From assembly GCA_030698575.1 (NCBI GenBank), contig JAUYMQ010000042.1:1-13473 (forward strand): a DNA stretch of 13,473 nt. The letters run 5' to 3'. This document shows positions 1,995-13,473 of this stretch, piece by piece. Both the position numbers and the translations under genes were made by a program. The notes beneath the pieces are model-generated. The model did no database searches and was not told the DNA's origin. It was given only the letters and a program-made list of their open reading frames with translations. Positions within the stretch are counted from its first letter, which is position 1. Every line of letters begins with the position of its first letter. Source of the stretch: Deltaproteobacteria bacterium (GTDB taxonomy: Bacteria > JAUYMQ01).

Positions 1995-3467
1995 TCAGCC
2001 GCTGGTCAACCCGACGAGTTTGCGAACCTCGCCCGCATCCAGGGTCTCGAGCCGCCGGATGAGCGTCAGCGCCGCTGAAGCGCGTTCCGGACCGACGTTC
2101 GCACCCGCCTCGCGCAAGAACTTCTCCTCGACGGCGGCCCGCTTCTCGGCCATCGGACGCCCCGCGCCTCCTGCAGGAACCTCGACCTCCGCTTCCATGG
2201 ATCGCCCGCCGGCCAAACGCACCAGAACGCGCGATCCGAATGACATCTTGAATCCCGCCAGGTCGGCGCTCTCCAGATCGAGGGTGGCGCGTGGTCCGAC
2301 CGGCCCGTCCTCGATCTTCACGAGCGACGACTCCTGCATGCGCTGTGTCATATTGTCATCGAAGCCCAGCTGAACTTTCGCAGCGAGCGCCCAGACCGCC
2401 GGATCGGCGATGCGCGCGCGCGTGAACTGCCGGGGGGACAATTCCCGATCGATGAGCGCCACGGCGACGTTGTAGGGGACGGAGAAGTTGAGGGTGACGG
2501 GGGTGCTCTTCGGACCCCGGAGGTGAGAAAGTGAGAGCGCCTCCATGCCGAGGGTCAGCGGGCCGGCATTGACCTCGATCGCCTCCACCTCCGCCGGATC
2601 GATCGCCTCGCGCCCCACGAGTTCGAGCACGCAGTCGACAGCGGTGTCGACGTATGCGCAGCCGGGATAGATCTTGAAACAGAGCGTTTCAGTGAGCCAG
2701 GTGACGCCGAGTCCGCGGTAGGCGCCCATGAGCGGCTTGTCGGTGAAGGCGGCCACGAAACCCTGATCGCTCTCGAGAACGTCTCCGCACCCCTCGAGAC
2801 CCGCCGCCGCGAGCTCCGCAGCCTGCACGCCGCCCACGGTCGTCGGGGACGCAAGGAGGATCTTCGCCTCGGAGCCGAAGAAAGGGGCCCAGAGTCCGTG
2901 AGGAGGCTGAAGCATGGCGATGCCCAGCGCCGATCGCATGCCGTCCGCATCGAGGCCGAGCATCTTTCCCGCCGCGACGGCGCCGCCGACGAGATGGATG
3001 AAGGTCCAGAGCTGGCCGTTCTGAGGGCCAAGGAGCACCGACGCGCCCACGCGCCCCTCAACCTCGTTGGCAATCACTTGCGAGAGGAGCAAGTCACGCC
3101 CCGTGAGATTTCGGGCTTCGGCCATCGCGAGGCTCGCCAGCACCGCGGAGTGCCCGGTGTGCCCGGCGAAGAGGTAGTCGTCGTAGTCGAGCGCCATGCT
3201 GAGGGCGGCGTTCGCGTAGATCGCGTGGTGCAAGGAGGTTCGCCGGCCTGACGGGATCATCGTCGCGCTCTCGTCCCCGCCCCCCCAGGCCGTGACGGCC
3301 TTCACGACGGCGGCGCCCGCCTCGGTGCCGGCGCCCGCGTGAACCGCCCCGAGCACGCTCATGACCTGGCTCTTGGCCTCCTCGATGACCTTCTCCGGGA
3401 TGTCCTGGAATTTCAGGCCGGCACTCCAGTCGGCGAGCACTGTGGTCACGTCTTCCCTGGCCGTCAT
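1995..3467 (-). CDS. MmgE/PrpD family protein (2-methylcitrate dehydratase-like)
   Basis: 490 aa, a normal length for the MmgE/PrpD family, whose members include 2-methylcitrate dehydratase, cis-aconitate decarboxylase and many uncharacterised hydro-lyases. The N-terminal helical domain carries the family signature: SLHHAIYANAAL near residues 78-89, then DYDD (94-97) and the GHTGH segment (102-106) leading into a helix with AEARNLTG. The second domain starts around residue 270 with the FKIYPGCAY stretch. The ATG at 3467 is preceded by a good ribosome site (GAGGAGA), which fixes the start. It lies 46 nt after the GMC oxidoreductase stop on the same strand, so the two are probably cotranscribed. 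No prpB or prpC neighbour is present, so the methylcitrate cycle is not supported. I infer dehydration of a hydroxy- or keto-acid linked to the GMC enzyme, substrate unknown. Confidence 0.88.
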   Translation of the reverse strand: MTAREDVTTVLADWSAGLKFQDIPEKVIEEAKSQVMSVLGAVHAGAGTEAGAAVVKAVTAWGGGDESATMIPSGRRTSLHHAIYANAALSMALDYDDYLFAGHTGHSAVLASLAMAEARNLTGRDLLLSQVIANEVEGRVGASVLLGPQNGQLWTFIHLVGGAVAAGKMLGLDADGMRSALGIAMLQPPHGLWAPFFGSEAKILLASPTTVGGVQAAELAAAGLEGCGDVLESDQGFVAAFTDKPLMGAYRGLGVTWLTETLCFKIYPGCAYVDTAVDCVLELVGREAIDPAEVEAIEVNAGPLTLGMEALSLSHLRGPKSTPVTLNFSVPYNVAVALIDRELSPRQFTRARIADPAVWALAAKVQLGFDDNMTQRMQESSLVKIEDGPVGPRATLDLESADLAGFKMSFGSRVLVRLAGGRSMEAEVEVPAGGAGRPMAEKRAAVEEKFLREAGANVGPERASAALTLIRRLETLDAGEVRKLVGLTSG

Positions 3468-3513: not shown

Positions 3514-5502
3514 TCAAGGCGCCGTCCTGTCGTCAACTGCGCGAGCGCCGAGACGGTCGGCCAGCCGCCAGGCGATGCGGGTCGCCATCGCCATGATGGT
3601 CACCTGGGGATTGACGCCGACACAGTCCGGAAAGACCGAGCCGTCGGCGACGAAGAGGCCCGGAAGGGCGTAGCTCTCGCCCGAAGGGTCGACGGCACAG
3701 CGCTGCGGGTCGTCGCCCATCCGCGCCGTCCCCACCGGATGAAAGCCGGCCACCGCCAGCGAGGCGGCCTTCACGGACGCCTCTGAGATCGCCTGGATCT
3801 GCGAGGGACTCTCCAGCACCGGAACCTCCGGTATCCCCGGGTACACGCGCCGCGCCCCCGCTGCAAAAAAGATACGGGCGGCGATCTCGATGCCGGAGAC
3901 AAGACGGCGTGTATCGGTTTCGCCGAGCTGGTAAGTCATCCACGGCTCACCTCCCGGCATGCGGCGCACGCGCCCGGTGGTGGAGTCGGCCACAAAGAGC
4001 CCCACCGATGCGATCTTGCGATAGTCGGCGAGGGAATTCTTGAGCTTCTCCCCGACCCCGGGCACACCCGCGGCGGAGAGCCCGGGAAGCGGCGAAGTGA
4101 CCTCGAAGAGCAGTCCGTGGCTTTCCCGGTACGCGTCGGTGAAGTATGGCTGCAGCGTTCCCCGCCAACCGTAGACATCCTCATCGAATTGTGCGGTGAC
4201 CCCCACTGCGGGATGAACGCGCAAGTTCCGCCCGACGACGCTGCGCGGTGACCCAGCCCCGCTGGCCATGAGGAGGAGCGGCGTGTGCACCGCGCCCGCG
4301 GCGAGCACCACGTGATCGGCGCGGATGCGGAGCCTCCCCTGTACTTCCGCGGCGACGGTCGCGCCGTCGCCATCCGAGAGGATCTGCGCCTCGACTCCCT
4401 CTGCGCGTCCGCCCCGGGTGAGGATGCGCGTCACCCGGCAGCGCGCGTACACGCTTGCGCCCGCCCGCTCCGCGCGCGGCAGGTACGAGAGGTGCATCGC
4501 CTGCTTGGCGTCGCTCGGGCATCCGAAGGCGCACACGCCACAGCCGCGGCACCCGTCGATGTTCCGGCGGATCGGCGCGCCCTCGATTCCAAGCGCGGCC
4601 AGGCCGCGGCGGAAGACCCGCGCGTTCTCACCGAGCAGCTCTTCGGGCACGGGCTTCACATGGATCGTCCGCTCCACCCGATCGAAGACGCCGGCCATGG
4701 CGTCGGGCGCCACTCCTTCAATACCCCATTCTGTTTCCCATGCCTTCAGCACCTCGTCCGGGGGCCGGAAGCAGGTGCCCGAGTTCACAACCGTGGTGCC
4801 GCCGACGGCCTTGCCGAGCGGCACTGGCACGAAGGGGCGGCCCAGCGCGAGCGTCAGCCCGCCGTCGCGGTAGAGCCGGCGCATGCGGTCGGGGAGCGAA
4901 CCCTGGAAATCTTGCTGGGTGAAGTAGGCGCCCTCCTCGACGACCGCGACGGAGAGCCCGCGCTCGGCGAGTTCCTTCGCGACCACCGCCCCTCCCGCGC
5001 CCGAACCCACCACGACCACATCGACCTTGACATCGACCTCCCCCGAGATTGCCGGGTAAGCCTTCGGCCGGAGGCGCGGCCCGGGTCGGGGCGGCGAAGC
5101 GTCGAGGCAGCGATGGTCGAAGCCGATCGCGTCGGCGACTTGCGGGTGCGCCGCGTAGGCCGCCACGCAGAGGGTCTTGAGAGGAAGCAGCATGGCGCGG
5201 CGCCATCCTTGCTTCTCGGCGCTTTCGAGATAGGCGGCGCGGCCGGCTTCTCCGAGGCGGGAGAAACGGGAAAAGTGGCGGCTTGCCAGTGGGGCCATCT
5301 CCCAGGCCGCAAGCATCGCGCGCAGGCTCGCTCGTCCCGAGGCCGGGAGCGCCCCGATGCCCCGGGCAACCTCCAGGGCCACGCCGGTCTCGTCGGCGCC
5401 CGGCGCGATGACGCCGCCCGCCGGCAGGATGGCGCGCGCGGTCTCCACAAGGGTCCGGAAGCCTCGGCTACCGATCAAGGCTTTCGCATTTTCCGGCGTC
5501 AT
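3514..5502 (-). CDS. GMC family FAD oxidoreductase with N-terminal helical domain and Cys cluster
   Basis: 662 aa flavoenzyme predicted to oxidise an alcohol (fatty alcohol, sterol or similar). Residues ~1-140 are a helical domain resembling gluconate 2-dehydrogenase subunit 3, found N-terminal in long-chain alcohol oxidase-type GMC proteins. The FAD Rossmann motif GSGAGG is at 166-171, followed by GKAVGGTTVVNSGT. A ferredoxin-like CxxCxxCxxxCP cluster (C318, C321, C324, C328) leads into DAKQA, as in long-chain alcohol oxidase relatives. The C-terminal half has HPVGTARMG (H588) and GVNPQ (N631), matching the catalytic His/Asn pair of cholesterol oxidase-type GMC enzymes. The frame is open upstream to 5718, but those 72 codons do not look like protein. 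The ATG at 5502 begins the recognisable domain, with GGGAG 11 nt upstream. No signal peptide is seen. It is the first gene of a unit with MmgE/PrpD. Confidence 0.9.
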   Translation of the reverse strand: MTPENAKALIGSRGFRTLVETARAILPAGGVIAPGADETGVALEVARGIGALPASGRASLRAMLAAWEMAPLASRHFSRFSRLGEAGRAAYLESAEKQGWRRAMLLPLKTLCVAAYAAHPQVADAIGFDHRCLDASPPRPGPRLRPKAYPAISGEVDVKVDVVVVGSGAGGAVVAKELAERGLSVAVVEEGAYFTQQDFQGSLPDRMRRLYRDGGLTLALGRPFVPVPLGKAVGGTTVVNSGTCFRPPDEVLKAWETEWGIEGVAPDAMAGVFDRVERTIHVKPVPEELLGENARVFRRGLAALGIEGAPIRRNIDGCRGCGVCAFGCPSDAKQAMHLSYLPRAERAGASVYARCRVTRILTRGGRAEGVEAQILSDGDGATVAAEVQGRLRIRADHVVLAAGAVHTPLLLMASGAGSPRSVVGRNLRVHPAVGVTAQFDEDVYGWRGTLQPYFTDAYRESHGLLFEVTSPLPGLSAAGVPGVGEKLKNSLADYRKIASVGLFVADSTTGRVRRMPGGEPWMTYQLGETDTRRLVSGIEIAARIFFAAGARRVYPGIPEVPVLESPSQIQAISEASVKAASLAVAGFHPVGTARMGDDPQRCAVDPSGESYALPGLFVADGSVFPDCVGVNPQVTIMAMATRIAWRLADRLGARAVDDRTAP

Positions 5503-5554
5503 TCGCGGGTGTGCTCCCGGTCGCGCGTGAGTGGGCGGTGCGCCATCGCCGGGG

Positions 5555-5560
5555 ATTGTA
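5555..5560 (-). promoter_or_regulatory. Possible -10 element for the GMC-MmgE/PrpD unit
   Basis: On the minus strand this reads TACAAT, five of six matches to the sigma-70 -10 consensus in an otherwise GC-rich 285 nt divergent intergenic region. It lies about 53 nt upstream of the GMC start codon. No convincing -35 box is found at 16-18 nt, so an activator would be needed or the match is chance. Confidence 0.25.
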
Positions 5561-5774
5561 CCGCCAAGCCGGCGCTCCTGGATACCCGGGGGGGACCGCA
5601 CGCGGGAGCTGCAACCTTTGCATGGCTTCGCGTTCAAAGACAAACTCGGACGCAAAGATTTCATCCGGCTCACCGGGCGGTCGGAGGCGTAAGCCCGGCT
5701 ATCTTGTGCTTCGAGCAAGGAGGAGGCACATGGAACAGCGATTGCAAGCTAGTAGGGCGGGCCAGAAGGCCGAG

Positions 5775-8078: not shown

Positions 8079-8098
8079 GCAAGCCTATAAGTGCTTGC
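8079..8098 (-). terminator. Small hairpin at the end of the five-gene operon
   Basis: GCAAGC and GCTTGC form a perfect 6-bp inverted repeat around an 8-nt loop, touching the stop codon of the acyl-CoA dehydrogenase gene. There is no U-tract on either strand, so it is not a canonical intrinsic terminator. It may stabilise the mRNA 3' end or be chance. Confidence 0.25.
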
Positions 8099-9324
8099 TA
8101 TGCATGACGATTGTCTGACAGCCAGGGCTGCTCCATTTGAATCTTGGCGATCACGTTCAGGTGTACCTCGTCGGGGCCGTCACCCAGGCGAAGCGCCCTC
8201 ATTCCGGCGTAAATCGCCGCAAGCGGAAAGTCCTGTGAGAGCCCCGCAGCCCCATGAATCTGGATTGCCCGGTCGAGCACGCGCATCGCCATGTTCGGCG
8301 CGACGACCTTGATCTGCGCGATCTCGGACCGCGCCACCTTGTTCCCCGCCTTGTCCATTACGTCCGCGGCCTTGAGCGTCAGCAAGCGCGCCTGATCGAT
8401 CTCGATGCGCGACCACGCGATGTAGTGCCGGATGACGCCCTGGTCGGCCAGCCGCTTGTGGAACGCCTTGCGTGAGAGTGCGCGAGCGACCATCAGTTCG
8501 AGCGCCCTCTCGGCCATGCCAATCGACCGCATGCAGTGGTGGATGCGGCCGGGGCCGAGCCGGCCCTGCGCGATCTCGAACCCCCTCCCCTCACCCAGGA
8601 TGAGATTCGAGGCAGGTACCCGCACGTTGTCAAAGAAGATCTCGAACTGGCCGCTCGGCGCCGAGTCGTAGCCGAAGACCTGCATGGGCCGGCCGATCCG
8701 GACGCCCGGCGTGTCCATCGGAACCAGGATCATGGAGTGCTGCTGGTGAGGCGGGTTCCCGGGGTCGGACCGGCCCATGAAAATCATGACCTTGCAGCGC
8801 GGATCGCCGGCCCCCGAGATGTACCACTTCTCGCCGTTGATGACGTACTCGTCTCCCTCCCGCACGATACGCGCGTCGATGTTGGTTGCGTCCGACGACG
8901 CAACCGCCGGCTCCGTCATCGCGAAGGCCGAGCGGATCTCTCCTCGCAGAAGCGGCATCAACCAGCGCTCCTTCTGCTCCGCCGTCCCGTAGCGGATCAG
9001 GACCTCCATGTTCCCGGTGTCCGGGAAGCTGCAGTTGAACAACTCCGGGCCGACGAGCGAACGCCCCATGATCTCGCAGAGCGGTGAGTACTCCAGGTTC
9101 GTGAGGCCCGCGCCCAGATCCGACTCCGGCAGGAAGAGGTTCCATAGCCCCTCAGCGCGCGCCTTCGACTTCAGCTCCTCGACAATGGGAGGAACGATCC
9201 AGCGCGACGGGGCCTTCTCGCTGAATTCGTGGATGGCGCGCTCATTGGGATAGACGTGCTCGTCCATGAAGGCGATGAGCCGCCGTCTGAGTTCGTTCAC
9301 CTTCGGTGTGTAATCGAAATCCAT
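8098..9324 (-). CDS. Acyl-CoA dehydrogenase, ACAD10/11 / LvaC-like
   Basis: 408 aa FAD-dependent acyl-CoA dehydrogenase. The N-terminal helical domain spans ~1-130. The flavin/substrate signature AMTEP (135-139) is followed by VASSDATN (141-148), which is characteristic of the ACAD10/ACAD11/LvaC branch, not medium- or short-chain enzymes. The C-terminal helical domain includes [17 protein letters not shown] and [14 protein letters not shown]. The usual catalytic Glu of YEGT-type motifs is replaced by Asp in GDGPDEVH (D382), also typical of this branch. The predicted reaction is conversion of 4-phospho-acyl-CoA, made by the neighbouring kinase, to an enoyl-CoA for beta-oxidation, as shown for Pseudomonas LvaC and mammalian ACAD11. 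A clear ribosome site (GGGAGAG) precedes the ATG. It is the last gene of the operon, 36 nt after the DUF6285 gene. The exact substrate chain length cannot be read from sequence. Confidence 0.92.
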
Positions 9325-9360
9325 GATCTCTCCCGGCCGCTCTTCGGCGGCGACGCGGCG

Positions 9361-9726
9361 CTAGCCATCCTCCAGGTACTTCGGATTCGCGATCCGGATC
9401 TTCCCCTCGGCGGTCTGCCGGAGATGCGCCATGAGTTCATCCCACCGGGAAGCCAGATCCCCTTCGCGGATGAGATCCACCAGCGCGGCCTCGAGATCCT
9501 CCGGCGAACCGTCCCTGCCCAGGAGCCGTTTCATCCGCTCCGTCTCCGCGCCGGACAGGGCGGGGCCGAGATCGAGCTCTCGCCTCGCGATGGTCAGCAG
9601 GTTCACCGCCACGCGGGCCTCGAAGGCCGCATGGCCCGAAAGCGCCGGGAGCGCGCGATCCCGGAGATACTCCTCGACCGCTTCCAGAAGCTCCGCGGCG
9701 TCGGGCCTGTCGATTGCCATCGCCAT
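9361..9726 (-). CDS. DUF6285 protein, LvaB-like partner of the 4-hydroxyacyl-CoA kinase
   Basis: 121 aa, mostly helical, no membrane segment. The layout matches the DUF6285/LvaB family: an N-terminal PDAAELLEAVEEYLRD helix, LPALSGHAAFEARVAVN, a central ARRELDLGP, and a C-terminal HLRQTAEGKIRIANPKYL ending. In Pseudomonas putida LvaB is a small protein of unknown mechanism that is needed with LvaA for 4-hydroxyvaleryl-CoA phosphorylation. The ATG at 9726 shares its A with the TGA of the kinase gene (TGATG), indicating translational coupling. A second in-frame ATG lies at 9720. The frame is open upstream to 10221, but that portion is antisense or out-of-frame to the kinase and was excluded. The family assignment is from memory of the sequence pattern, strengthened by the kinase-LvaB-dehydrogenase gene order. 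Confidence 0.82.
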   Translation of the reverse strand: MAMAIDRPDAAELLEAVEEYLRDRALPALSGHAAFEARVAVNLLTIARRELDLGPALSGAETERMKRLLGRDGSPEDLEAALVDLIREGDLASRWDELMAHLRQTAEGKIRIANPKYLEDG

Positions 9727-10745
9727 CACCCCAGAAGATGGATCAGATCGAACTCGGTCTCCGCCACGCGCCTGCCTATCGCGGCGGCTTCGACGGACCG
9801 CTGTACGCCATTCAGATGAAGGGCGGCCCGGATTGTGCAGAGCGCGCCCCACTTCACAGTTCCGAGAACCTCCCAGAAGCGAACTGCCTCCGGGTCCACC
9901 GCGCCGCCGCCGGCCGCCTCGTAGGACTTGAAGAGCTCCTCCCGCGTGCCGAAGCCGCCGGCATGGAGCGCGTGGTTTCCGAAGCGCCACGGCTTCAAGC
10001 AGAGGAATCCGAGATCCTCCATGGGATCGCCGAGATGGGCGTATTCCCAGTCGAGGACCGCGCGTAGCCCCTCCGGGCCGACGAGGAAATTCCCGTTCCG
10101 GAAATCGCCGTGAACGAGGCGCGGAGTCTCCGCGGCACCCGGCGCGTGATCGGCGCACCAGCGCAGCGCCAGCTCGAAAACGGGTCGCGGCGCGCCGCCC
10201 AGATCCAGCATGCGCCGGCAAAGGACCAGCTGCGAAGCGACGTCCCGGAGCGGAAGCTGCGGCAGCTTCCCGGGTTCGACCCCGTGGATGCGCGCGGCCA
10301 CAGCGCCGATCGCCGCGGTCATCGTCGATCTCGCCTCCGCGAAAGCCTCATCGCGGAGAAGCTTCCTCGGAAGTCCCTCGCCCTCGATGCGCTCCATCAC
10401 GAAACAGTCGCTCAAACCGGTTGCCGGATCGGGGAGGCACACGGGGCGCGGGACGGGAAGCCCTGCCGCATGGAGCGCCTGGAAGAGCGCGTACTCCGCC
10501 GCGCGATCGTAGTCGTCCGGCTCGCCCATCAGGGCGGCCAGTCCGAGCGCCCGGCCCCCCTCGAAATCCTTCCGGAGGATGAGCGACATCGCACCGCCCC
10601 CGGCTCCTTTCGCATCGAAGGCCCAGGTCTCGCGCGACGCACCACCGGAGAGCCGGACGAGGTTCCCGACGCGAACGCGTCCGCCCAGCTCGTTCGACAG
10701 GGCGGCCTCGAGCTGTCCGGCCAGCGTCTCTATCCTGGCGTCCAT
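9726..10745 (-). CDS. APH-fold phosphotransferase, LvaA-like 4-hydroxyacyl-CoA kinase
   Basis: 339 aa protein of the aminoglycoside phosphotransferase/choline kinase fold. The nucleotide-binding loop LSGGASRETW (32-41) is followed by LILRKDF in the N-lobe. The catalytic loop HGDFRNGN (212-219) gives D214 and N219, and the metal-binding Asp is D232 in VLDWEYAHLGDP. The LSGGxSRETW start and the WEYAHLGDPxEDLG stretch are typical of the phosphotransferase branch fused to acyl-CoA dehydrogenase in ACAD10/11 and of LvaA, rather than antibiotic-resistance enzymes. Predicted role: ATP-dependent phosphorylation of the 4-hydroxyl of a 4-hydroxyacyl-CoA. It lies 26 nt after the BtrH-like gene, overlaps the LvaB-like start by one base, and sits two genes before the matching dehydrogenase. 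The ribosome site is weak (AGAG), consistent with reinitiation. An antibiotic-resistance role is unlikely in this context. Confidence 0.88.
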   Translation of the reverse strand: MDARIETLAGQLEAALSNELGGRVRVGNLVRLSGGASRETWAFDAKGAGGGAMSLILRKDFEGGRALGLAALMGEPDDYDRAAEYALFQALHAAGLPVPRPVCLPDPATGLSDCFVMERIEGEGLPRKLLRDEAFAEARSTMTAAIGAVAARIHGVEPGKLPQLPLRDVASQLVLCRRMLDLGGAPRPVFELALRWCADHAPGAAETPRLVHGDFRNGNFLVGPEGLRAVLDWEYAHLGDPMEDLGFLCLKPWRFGNHALHAGGFGTREELFKSYEAAGGGAVDPEAVRFWEVLGTVKWGALCTIRAALHLNGVQRSVEAAAIGRRVAETEFDLIHLLG

Positions 10746-10771
10746 TGTGATTCTCTGGATAAGAGTGGAAG

Positions 10772-11806
10772 TCAGCGCGAAAGCTCATCGAACAGGGCCG
10801 ATTCGAGCCCGTGAATCTCCGAAGCCTTCAGCGCCGCGCGCTTCCAGAGTGTCTCGTCCTCCGGGGCCTTTGAGGCCATCTTCAGAATCCCGGAGAGGTC
10901 GGTCCAACCGGCCGCCGATCGCGCGGCCAGGTCGGCGCAGCCGGCCGGCGCCCGATCGGGAACGAGCCCGTGGGCCCAGCGAAGGAAGGCGGCGAACATG
11001 CGCCTGAAGTTTCCTCCACCGGTTCCGAATTCCTCGAAGGTCTGTGACGCGTAGAAAGCCAGGAAACGCGGATCGGCGTGCTTGCTCCAGAGGGAGACCT
11101 CGGCGGCGAACCGCGCGAGCCCCTCGAGTCCGGTGGAAATCTCGAGGGCGCCGGCGCCCGGGGCGGCTTTCAGGAGATCGGCCTGCGATCGGTCACCCCC
11201 CGTCATCCGCGCGACGCTCCTGTCGATCGCAAGCCCGCAGGCCTCTTCCAGGGAGTGCTTGCGCTCACGCCCGTGAAACTTTCCCCAGAGATTAAGAACC
11301 GACATGCCCGCCGGGGAGTTCCGGCTTCGCGCGAGCGCATCGTAGGAGCAGGGCTGGGGATCCGGGTCGACCCGGTCGGCCACGTAAGCAAGTCGCTTCT
11401 CATCGTCGAAGCCCAGGAGCACGAACCGGTGGCCCGGGAAATGAACCTTGAAATGCCTGTAATCGAGATAGAAGATGTCGCCACAGAGCATGGTCGGATG
11501 CCCCTCCACGACTTCCCGCCGCACGTCCTCCCAGGCCGTCCCGTCATCGGGGTCCACGGTTTCACGATAGTCGATGCCGAGCGCGGACCCGACGTCCGCC
11601 TCCATCGTCACACTCCGGCCGAACACGATGACGGGCGGTTCGAAGCCCGGGTTCGCGAGATAGATACAGTCGATTCCCGATCCGAGTCCGAAGACGACTT
11701 CTTCCTCCAGATCAAGTTCGCAGTAGTGATGCAGGAGATTTCTCATGGCACCACTGCCGCAATGCCGGCCGGGAAGATTACGATAGCCGGGAATCATTTC
11801 TCTCAT
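10772..11806 (-). CDS. BtrH_N / DUF4872 protein, putative papain-like acyltransferase or amidase
   Basis: 344 aa. The N-terminus matches the BtrH N-terminal family: GRHCGSGAMRNLLHH (13-27), then FGLGSGIDCIYL. BtrH, of butirosin biosynthesis, transfers an acyl group from a carrier protein to an aminoglycoside amine. The spacing C16, then GHRFVLLGFDD (H126), then VADR (D144) matches a C39/papain-like Cys-His-Asp triad. The C-terminal ~150 residues are helical, as expected for DUF4872. No signal peptide is visible, so action is probably cytosolic. A good ribosome site (AGAAGGA, 6 nt spacing) supports ATG 11806; Met4 is an alternative. It lies 31 nt after the membrane-protein gene and 26 nt before the LvaA-like kinase. 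A role acylating or deacylating the operon's substrate is an inference. No aminoglycoside biosynthesis genes are seen. Confidence 0.82.
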   Translation of the reverse strand: MREMIPGYRNLPGRHCGSGAMRNLLHHYCELDLEEEVVFGLGSGIDCIYLANPGFEPPVIVFGRSVTMEADVGSALGIDYRETVDPDDGTAWEDVRREVVEGHPTMLCGDIFYLDYRHFKVHFPGHRFVLLGFDDEKRLAYVADRVDPDPQPCSYDALARSRNSPAGMSVLNLWGKFHGRERKHSLEEACGLAIDRSVARMTGGDRSQADLLKAAPGAGALEISTGLEGLARFAAEVSLWSKHADPRFLAFYASQTFEEFGTGGGNFRRMFAAFLRWAHGLVPDRAPAGCADLAARSAAGWTDLSGILKMASKAPEDETLWKRAALKASEIHGLESALFDELSR

Positions 11807-11837
11807 GCGAATTCCTTCTCGGCGCCAGTGGACGTTC

Positions 11838-12275
11838 TCAGCGGATCAGCGGCCGCCGCTGCCGCCAGGCAAGAATGATGACGACGGGACCGAGCGTCAG
11901 GACGAGGCTGACGATGCAGAGCTCGATCGTCGATTCGGGGGTCAGATTCTCGAAGATACCCTGCTCGAGATCATAGAGCAGGTCCATGAGGCCCAGAAAT
12001 ATCGCGGCGCTCCCCGCCAGCAACATGAAAAGCACTCCCCAGTCGCGCATCCTGTAGAGGCCGATGGCGCCGAGGAGGGCGCAGAGCGCGAGCCACAGAT
12101 CGGCCAGCGGGAAGGCTTCCTCGAAGGTCACGTAGGCCAGGTAGCCGGCGTCGTCGGGGGTCATCGATTGCACGAGCTCGGGCGCCCCGAACCAGGCCGC
12201 CCAGTAGAGCGTGACGCCCAGCGCCGAAACGATTCCGAGTCCCATGAGCACGTTCACGGCAAGGGGTCGCTTCAT
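11838..12275 (-). CDS. Small four-helix membrane protein of unknown function
   Basis: 145 aa with four predicted transmembrane segments at about 7-28, 57-74, 79-99 and 117-137, and a positively charged C-terminal tail (WRQRRPLIR) suggesting a cytoplasmic C-terminus. The first loop is acidic (TPDDAGYLAY, FEEAFPLAD), as is the third (LYDLEQGIFENLTPES). I do not recognise the family. The start at 12275 is chosen because GGAGG lies 9 nt upstream and the hydrophobic protein begins there; the ~98 upstream in-frame codons look like non-coding translation. It is the first gene of the probable operon with the BtrH-like protein and the LvaABC-like module. It could be a transporter accessory or a membrane anchor; nothing in the sequence decides. 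Confidence 0.72.
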   Translation of the reverse strand: MKRPLAVNVLMGLGIVSALGVTLYWAAWFGAPELVQSMTPDDAGYLAYVTFEEAFPLADLWLALCALLGAIGLYRMRDWGVLFMLLAGSAAIFLGLMDLLYDLEQGIFENLTPESTIELCIVSLVLTLGPVVIILAWRQRRPLIR

Positions 12276-12480: not shown

Positions 12481-13473
12481 ATGCTCGAGCCCATCGTCCA
12501 TCCCCTGCCCTCCCGCGTTCTCAACCGCGCTGGCGCGCTTCTCCAGAGCGCCGGAATGGAACTGCTCACCTACACACCCGGAACCTTCAAGGAACGGGCG
12601 ATGCGCATGGCGGGGCTCGATGATTTCGGCGAGCCGGACTATGAAGCCGGGCTGGCGACGCTGTGTGACTCCGTCGAGAAGGATGCGCGACTGCTCCTCA
12701 CCGGCCGTCTCGCCTTCAGGGATGGCGTCACAAACGCGCTCGTGACGCGGCTCCGGCGCATCGAGGCCCGCAAGCGCTCGCCCGAGATCTTCGCGCGTCC
12801 CCTCGTGCCGCCACTCATCGTGATCGGGCTTCCCCGGTCGGGCACAACGCTCCTGCAGCGGCTGCTCTCGCTGGACGAGGAGACGCGCGCGCCCGCGCTC
12901 TGGGAACTGCAGGAGCCGATCGCGGGGCCCGGACCCGATCGCCGCCGGGAACGGAGCATCAAGCAGGTGGCGCGCATGAAGAAGGCCGCGCCGGGAATCG
13001 ACGCGAAGCACCACATCGATTCCGACGAGCCCGAGGAAGACGTCTTTCTATTCGACAGCAGCCTCTGGAGCCTCAGCTTCTGGATGCTCGCCCCGGTCTA
13101 CGGCTACCTGACCTGGTACCTGGAACAGGATCCATTGCCCGGCTATCGAGTGTATCGCGAGCACTTGCAGCTGTTCCAGGCCGAGAACCCGGGGAAGCGC
13201 CTCACCCTGAAGGCACCCGCGCACACCGGCTACGTCGGAGCGCTCCTCGAAGCGGTGCCCGAAGCCCTGGTCGTCCAGACACATCGTGATCCCGTCACCG
13301 TCACCAACAGCGTCAACAGCCTCTTCCACACGGTGCACGGGTATCTGACGGAGCGCGTGGACATCGAGCGCACGGCCGCGGTCAACGTCGATCTGTTCCT
13401 GCGCTACTTCGAATGGAATTTCGCGGCACGCGAGAAGATCCAGGCCGGACGCATTCTGGACATCCGTTACGAT
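12481..13473 (+). CDS. PAPS-dependent sulfotransferase family protein, 3' end outside the window
   Basis: 331 codons without a stop run to the last base, so the C-terminus is missing. Residues 112-125 (LIVIGLPRSGTTLL) form the 5'-phosphosulfate-binding loop. LKAPAH near 224-229 leads to ALVVQTHRDP, where R269 and S277 fit the 3'-phosphate-binding R-x7-S motif. This is the Sulfotransfer_3 type common in environmental bacteria, where the acceptor is usually unknown (lipids, sterols, small alcohols). The first ~100 residues form a helical domain with the segment LTGRLAFRDGVTNALVTRLR that precedes the core in this subfamily. ATG 12481 has AAGGAG at good spacing, and the next in-frame ATGs lie inside the helical domain. 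It diverges from the LvaABC-like operon. Co-regulation is possible but unproven. No signal peptide is seen. Confidence 0.9.
   Translation, partial: MLEPIVHPLPSRVLNRAGALLQSAGMELLTYTPGTFKERAMRMAGLDDFGEPDYEAGLATLCDSVEKDARLLLTGRLAFRDGVTNALVTRLRRIEARKRSPEIFARPLVPPLIVIGLPRSGTTLLQRLLSLDEETRAPALWELQEPIAGPGPDRRRERSIKQVARMKKAAPGIDAKHHIDSDEPEEDVFLFDSSLWSLSFWMLAPVYGYLTWYLEQDPLPGYRVYREHLQLFQAENPGKRLTLKAPAHTGYVGALLEAVPEALVVQTHRDPVTVTNSVNSLFHTVHGYLTERVDIERTAAVNVDLFLRYFEWNFAAREKIQAGRILDIRYD

Follow-up and report, generated by a model that had tools for sequence, protein, structure and literature searches.

A BtrH-type protein is encoded in the window (the whole 13,473-nt stretch of DNA analysed here) directly ahead of a complete kinase/DUF6285/ACAD11-type gene module. 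According to its structural model, the protein has the full-length fold of the acyltransferase-type enzymes CtaG, AziU3 and CcbD and an intact candidate Cys-His-Asp triad. We consider it slightly better than an even chance that this protein is an acyltransferase or thioesterase that depends on thioesters, probably those of CoA, and that its place beside a standard 4-hydroxyacyl-CoA module is specific to this lineage. The pairing of BtrH and DUF6285 genes is not conserved among the genomes sampled, where the nearest member of the window protein's clade is 56% identical to it; BtrH genes of other lineages recur in catabolic cassettes of different composition.

The five-gene run and its ACAD11-type module

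Contig C278, of which the window is the entire length, belongs to a 4.13-Mb genome bin with 653 contigs (completeness 91.6%, contamination 4.6%). Positions 8098-12275 of the minus strand hold five genes, which in transcription order encode a 145-aa membrane protein with four hydrophobic segments in the hydropathy profile (4-TM protein; 11838-12275), the 344-aa BtrH_N/DUF4872 protein (10772-11806), an APH-family kinase similar to LvaA and to the kinase of ACAD11 (9726-10745), a 121-aa DUF6285 protein (9361-9726) and an ACAD11/LvaC-type acyl-CoA dehydrogenase family protein (8098-9324). All five frames were chosen by a gene caller that relies on codon usage and had loci of comparable GC as its training set; the coordinates, the shared strand and the gaps given in the earlier note for the first three genes proved correct, with 31 nt between the 4-TM and BtrH genes and 26 nt between the BtrH and kinase genes. 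The kinase and DUF6285 genes overlap at stop and start (a gap of −1 nt), and 36 nt separate the DUF6285 and dehydrogenase genes. Since the promoter scan found no sigma-70-like site in the region of the run, and terminator-like sites there were no more frequent than expected by chance, it is from the spacing that we infer one probable operon; this supports the previously proposed layout, in which the BtrH and 4-TM genes share a transcript with the kinase, LvaB and dehydrogenase genes. Since a sulfotransferase gene divergent from the run begins at 12481, the start of the run is probably in the 205-nt gap before the 4-TM gene. Genes for a GMC oxidoreductase (3514-5718), an MmgE/PrpD-type protein (1995-3467) and this Sulfotransfer_3-type sulfotransferase (12481-13473) flank the run.

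The dehydrogenase (Pfam E-value 3e-39) matched ACAD11 (PDB 8v3u) with an E-value of 2e-143, against only 4e-41 for the best canonical dehydrogenase. Its residues R255, H263-C264-M265-R266 and D382 align to R626, the HCMR motif and D753 of ACAD11 (residue numbers in the PDB chain differ by one from those in PMC12440821); the HCMR motif, the upstream Arg and the catalytic Asp have been tied to 4-phosphoacyl-CoA processing (PMC12440821). The kinase (Pfam APH, 3.5e-30) carries D214 and N219 in its HGDxxxxN-type motif, HGDFRNGN; the best PDB matches of this protein are 3dxp and ACAD11 (8v3v), the match to the ACAD11 kinase having an E-value of 2.9e-8. The DUF6285 assignment has a Pfam E-value of 5.3e-28. 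An APH gene lies directly upstream of the DUF6285 gene in every one of the 18 other loci that showed both genes, as expected of an LvaB-type partner, and we regard the window protein as a putative kinase partner of this type.

With an ACAD11/LvaC-type dehydrogenase, an APH kinase motif and a DUF6285 gene following the kinase gene, the label 'LvaABC-like' used in the earlier note is sound. The dehydrogenase with R, HCMR and the catalytic Asp and the APH-type kinase are common to the window, to LvaABC of P. putida and to ACAD10/ACAD11, and the small DUF6285 protein would take the place of LvaB; unlike the Lva system, the window has no LvaD or LvaE genes, and BtrH and 4-TM genes precede its module. 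The kinase would phosphorylate the 4-hydroxyl group of a 4-hydroxyacyl-CoA, and the dehydrogenase would eliminate the phosphate to give a 2-enoyl-CoA. Another ACAD-kinase-DUF6285 set in the source genome has no BtrH gene (L073, 6520-9105).

Fold and candidate triad of the BtrH protein

The BtrH protein passes the Pfam cut-offs of both its domains: BtrH_N with 98.9 bits (E-value 3.6e-28, cut-off 29.7) and DUF4872 with 83.2 bits (2.5e-23, cut-off 28). In an alignment of 61 BtrH sequences C16, H126 and D144 are invariant and make a candidate Cys-His-Asp triad. A search of the PDB with the single protein sequence gave no match, and a BtrH profile matched AziU3-type chains only (E-value 8e-4). The AlphaFold model, built from 54 sequences (pLDDT 95.6), matched over its full length CtaG (Z-score 23.0, 288 residues), AziU3 (22.7) and CcbD (21.8). 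The variants C11A, H128A and D144N of CtaG, named in PDB titles, correspond to C16, H126 and D144 of the window protein. The acyltransferase-type assignment made earlier is thus backed by the model and by the invariant residues.

The CtaG-type fold, with the mutated residues of CtaG fitting the triad, supports a thioester-dependent acyl-cysteine mechanism: Cys16 would accept the acyl group of a phosphopantetheine thioester and hand it on to an acceptor, which may be an amine, an alcohol or water. The fold and the triad tell neither the donor nor the acceptor. The structural relatives, enzymes of closthioamide (CtaG), celesticetin (CcbD) and azinomycin (AziU3) pathways, have the fold in common with the window protein at Z-scores of 21 to 23 over 285-309 residues, but they are only 11-18% identical to it and serve in antibiotic pathways; the CcbD structure was solved with a carrier-protein domain bound.

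A weak Pfam score for Peptidase_C39_2 and the resemblance of the N-terminal half to C39-like and phytochelatin synthase structures could suggest a C39-like peptidase or amidase instead of a transferase. Such matches have Z-scores of 14 or less and cover the N-terminal half of the model only, whereas the fold as a whole, helical C-terminal domain included, fits CtaG, AziU3 and CcbD at Z ∼22; moreover, the activity described for BtrH itself is that of an acyl carrier protein:aminoglycoside acyltransferase (PMC10318531). We therefore regard a peptidase as very unlikely.

With BtrH of the butirosin pathway (PF14399/PF16169) the window protein shares both domains and the family-invariant Cys, His and Asp. 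It differs in belonging to a distinct clade with an NLWGKFHG insertion and in its surroundings, as the window has no aminoglycoside genes and no nearby carrier protein, and the BtrH gene adjoins a catabolic module. DarH, a BtrH-related acyltransferase, was considered as an identity and rejected: the match to NF053550 spans the whole length, but its 73 bits are far under the 300-bit cut-off, and the window has no dialkylresorcinol or aryl-polyene genes.

BtrH and DUF6285 genes in other genomes

The neighbourhood survey comprised 66 BtrH loci, 63 of them distinct (window included; three clade members were fetched twice), and 18 DUF6285 loci outside the window, some flanks ending at contig ends. 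Recurrent linkage of BtrH_N and DUF6285 genes, put forward beforehand as a refutable expectation, was contradicted: a DUF6285 gene stands beside BtrH at none of the 62 other BtrH loci, and a BtrH gene beside DUF6285 at none of the 18 other DUF6285 loci, and we reject a recurrent BtrH-DUF6285 operon. Among the 63 distinct loci, it is only in the window that the neighbours of BtrH include a kinase, DUF6285 or ACAD11-type gene; the only other locus with any such trace is L083, where a weak kinase-like fragment lies ∼9 kb from the BtrH gene. Genomes G387, G389, G563, G288 and G149 contain both BtrH and DUF6285 genes, not as neighbours, and a second, distant BtrH gene is present elsewhere in the window's own genome (L072). 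It is this separation within genomes, together with the counts of zero, that shows the pairing not to be a conserved module among the genomes sampled.

Relatives of the window protein were collected by a contig scan (four, at 45-51% identity) and by further genome searches (six more distinct proteins). With the window protein they make a clade of 11 with tree support of 100/100 and a shared NLWGKFHG insertion. Their neighbourhoods, in which some gene functions were assigned by reading the translations alone, are varied and often involve CoA thioesters. Two of them (L025 and L067) have genes for an ACAD, an acyl-CoA ligase, an HMG-CoA lyase and BtrH. These resemble the gene cluster for acetone degradation in Desulfotomaculum geothermicum, which likewise serves the catabolism of CoA esters and includes an HMG-CoA lyase; its BtrH-annotated protein is abundant on acetone, and, in contrast to the window, no kinase/DUF6285/ACAD11 module is reported there (PMC8084838). 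Elsewhere in the clade the BtrH gene is followed after 6 nt by a hot-dog thioesterase-like gene (L071), has a long-chain acyl-CoA ligase gene upstream (L070), or has genes for a lipoprotein and a PaaK-like ligase downstream (L066). It follows genes for a luciferase-like oxidoreductase and a small hydrolase in L023, and lies between TetR and MFS transporter genes in L024 and alone at a contig end in L022, the last two loci having no adjoining acyl-CoA gene; L068 and L069 present yet other neighbourhoods. Genes for an opposing ACAD, an alcohol dehydrogenase, a ferredoxin-like protein, a nitroreductase and TetR also occur in the L025 (845-14729) and L067 clusters, and L025 has in addition a thiolase and a molybdopterin oxidoreductase.

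These very different neighbourhoods are what one would expect if the BtrH and 4-TM genes were hitch-hiking, i.e. were unrelated to 4-hydroxyacyl-CoA metabolism and owed their place to a shared promoter or to chance adjacency. The lack of recurrence at the 62 and 18 loci fits hitch-hiking too, as do the several genomes, the window's own among them, that carry BtrH and DUF6285 loci apart. We hold it to be possible, though clearly less probable than an even chance, because the same-strand spacing of all five genes is tight and the BtrH family is found repeatedly beside acyl-CoA genes.

The earlier note had envisaged a dedicated pathway, with the BtrH protein freeing or loading an amide- or ester-bound 4-hydroxyacyl substrate for the kinase, DUF6285 protein and dehydrogenase, and the 4-TM protein aiding import. 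Shared strand and close spacing agree with this scheme, and so do the ACAD11-type chemistry downstream and the acyltransferase fold; what makes it very improbable is the lack of recurrent BtrH-DUF6285 linkage and the distribution of the 4-TM protein, which is absent from the other BtrH loci of the survey. The latter protein had no Pfam match and no match on plasmids, and its sole detectable relative (L181:711-1151), a weak one with 22% identity over 87 residues, is in an unrelated ArsR/methyltransferase setting; a role as importer of an N-acyl compound is unsupported.

BtrH genes in catabolic cassettes and the probable donor

BtrH-type proteins were detected in 20 of 386 broadly sampled bacterial genomes (about 5%). 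The family recurs in catabolic cassettes, namely P450 clusters with PaaI thioesterases and ligase/ACAD cassettes. On Rhodococcus and Acinetobacter plasmids BtrH genes are located in P450 alkane-type clusters and are followed by PaaI thioesterase genes. In one gammaproteobacterial order the succession of metal-dependent hydrolase, BtrH, PaaI, PaaI, acyl-CoA ligase and ACAD genes recurs, both PaaI-type thioesterases having been read in L125 only. Among haloarchaea, in the plasmid survey, BtrH adjoins genes of aromatic-acyl-CoA type.

The Rhodococcus clusters (L084, L087 and L091) have ferredoxin, P450, FAD reductase and BtrH genes, then the PaaI gene, with a transglutaminase-like gene in two of the three; the Acinetobacter cluster (L085, 4383-7872) has hydrolase, TetR, BtrH and two PaaI genes next to the P450 system. 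The gammaproteobacterial hydrolase belongs to PF10118, and the ligase gene is followed by ACAD genes (L125, 5431-10906; L122, L127 and L128). The haloarchaeal genes (L086 and L089) lie beside TrpB, enoyl-CoA hydratase, SDR, MaoC, ACAD and RidA genes; one of the two loci adds kynureninase and benzoate-CoA ligase genes, and the set suggests an aminobenzoate-type CoA pathway.

Of 141 near neighbours of BtrH, 10 had AMP-binding domains and 5 had acyl-CoA dehydrogenase domains; the corresponding figures for 133 control genes were 2 and at most 1, the latter deduced because the dehydrogenase domain did not appear in the list of 25 control families. Domains of enoyl-CoA hydratase and carboxyltransferase were commoner in the control genes. 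The enrichment is modest and, as some loci are related, partly phylogenetic.

No carrier domain (PF00550) was found in the window, and the only two in the genome are located elsewhere; a CoA thioester, or else the housekeeping ACP, is therefore a more probable acyl donor than any dedicated carrier protein. We name CoA as a candidate donor only, since the structural relatives studied in papers make antibiotics and CcbD was seen carrier-bound. Under our preferred reading, a thioester-dependent enzyme placed beside the 4-hydroxyacyl-CoA module, the BtrH protein would be expressed with the module's genes in the window and would act as an accessory enzyme beside other acyl-CoA pathways elsewhere, its placement before the module being lineage-specific rather than part of a fixed five-gene pathway. 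Against this reading count the heterogeneity of the clade, with L022 and L024 among its members, the modest enrichment, the derivation of the operon from spacing and the distance to the nearest relative (56% identity).

More tentatively, the window clade could represent undescribed CoA-thioester-dependent cysteine acyltransferases or thioesterases whose place is in acyl-CoA catabolism, in the window the breakdown of 4-hydroxyacyl-CoA, and not in the making of antibiotics; forming or removing an N- or O-acyl conjugate of a pathway intermediate would be one such role. The paper-backed members of the BtrH/CtaG fold make antibiotics or pigments, while the family, present in ∼5% of genomes, is often near genes for acyl-CoA ligases, dehydrogenases and hot-dog thioesterases. 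Should its members work on CoA thioesters, acyl-CoA metabolism in bacteria would contain a common step that still awaits assignment, and the role of BtrH in it could be probed in one defined chemical setting, that of 4-hydroxyacyl-CoA, which the window operon offers. Two further loci have features of their own: a BtrH gene on a Streptomyces plasmid lies in a polysaccharide setting, and one BtrH homologue (L041; G619:C26:13072-13992) is broken by a single in-frame TAG.
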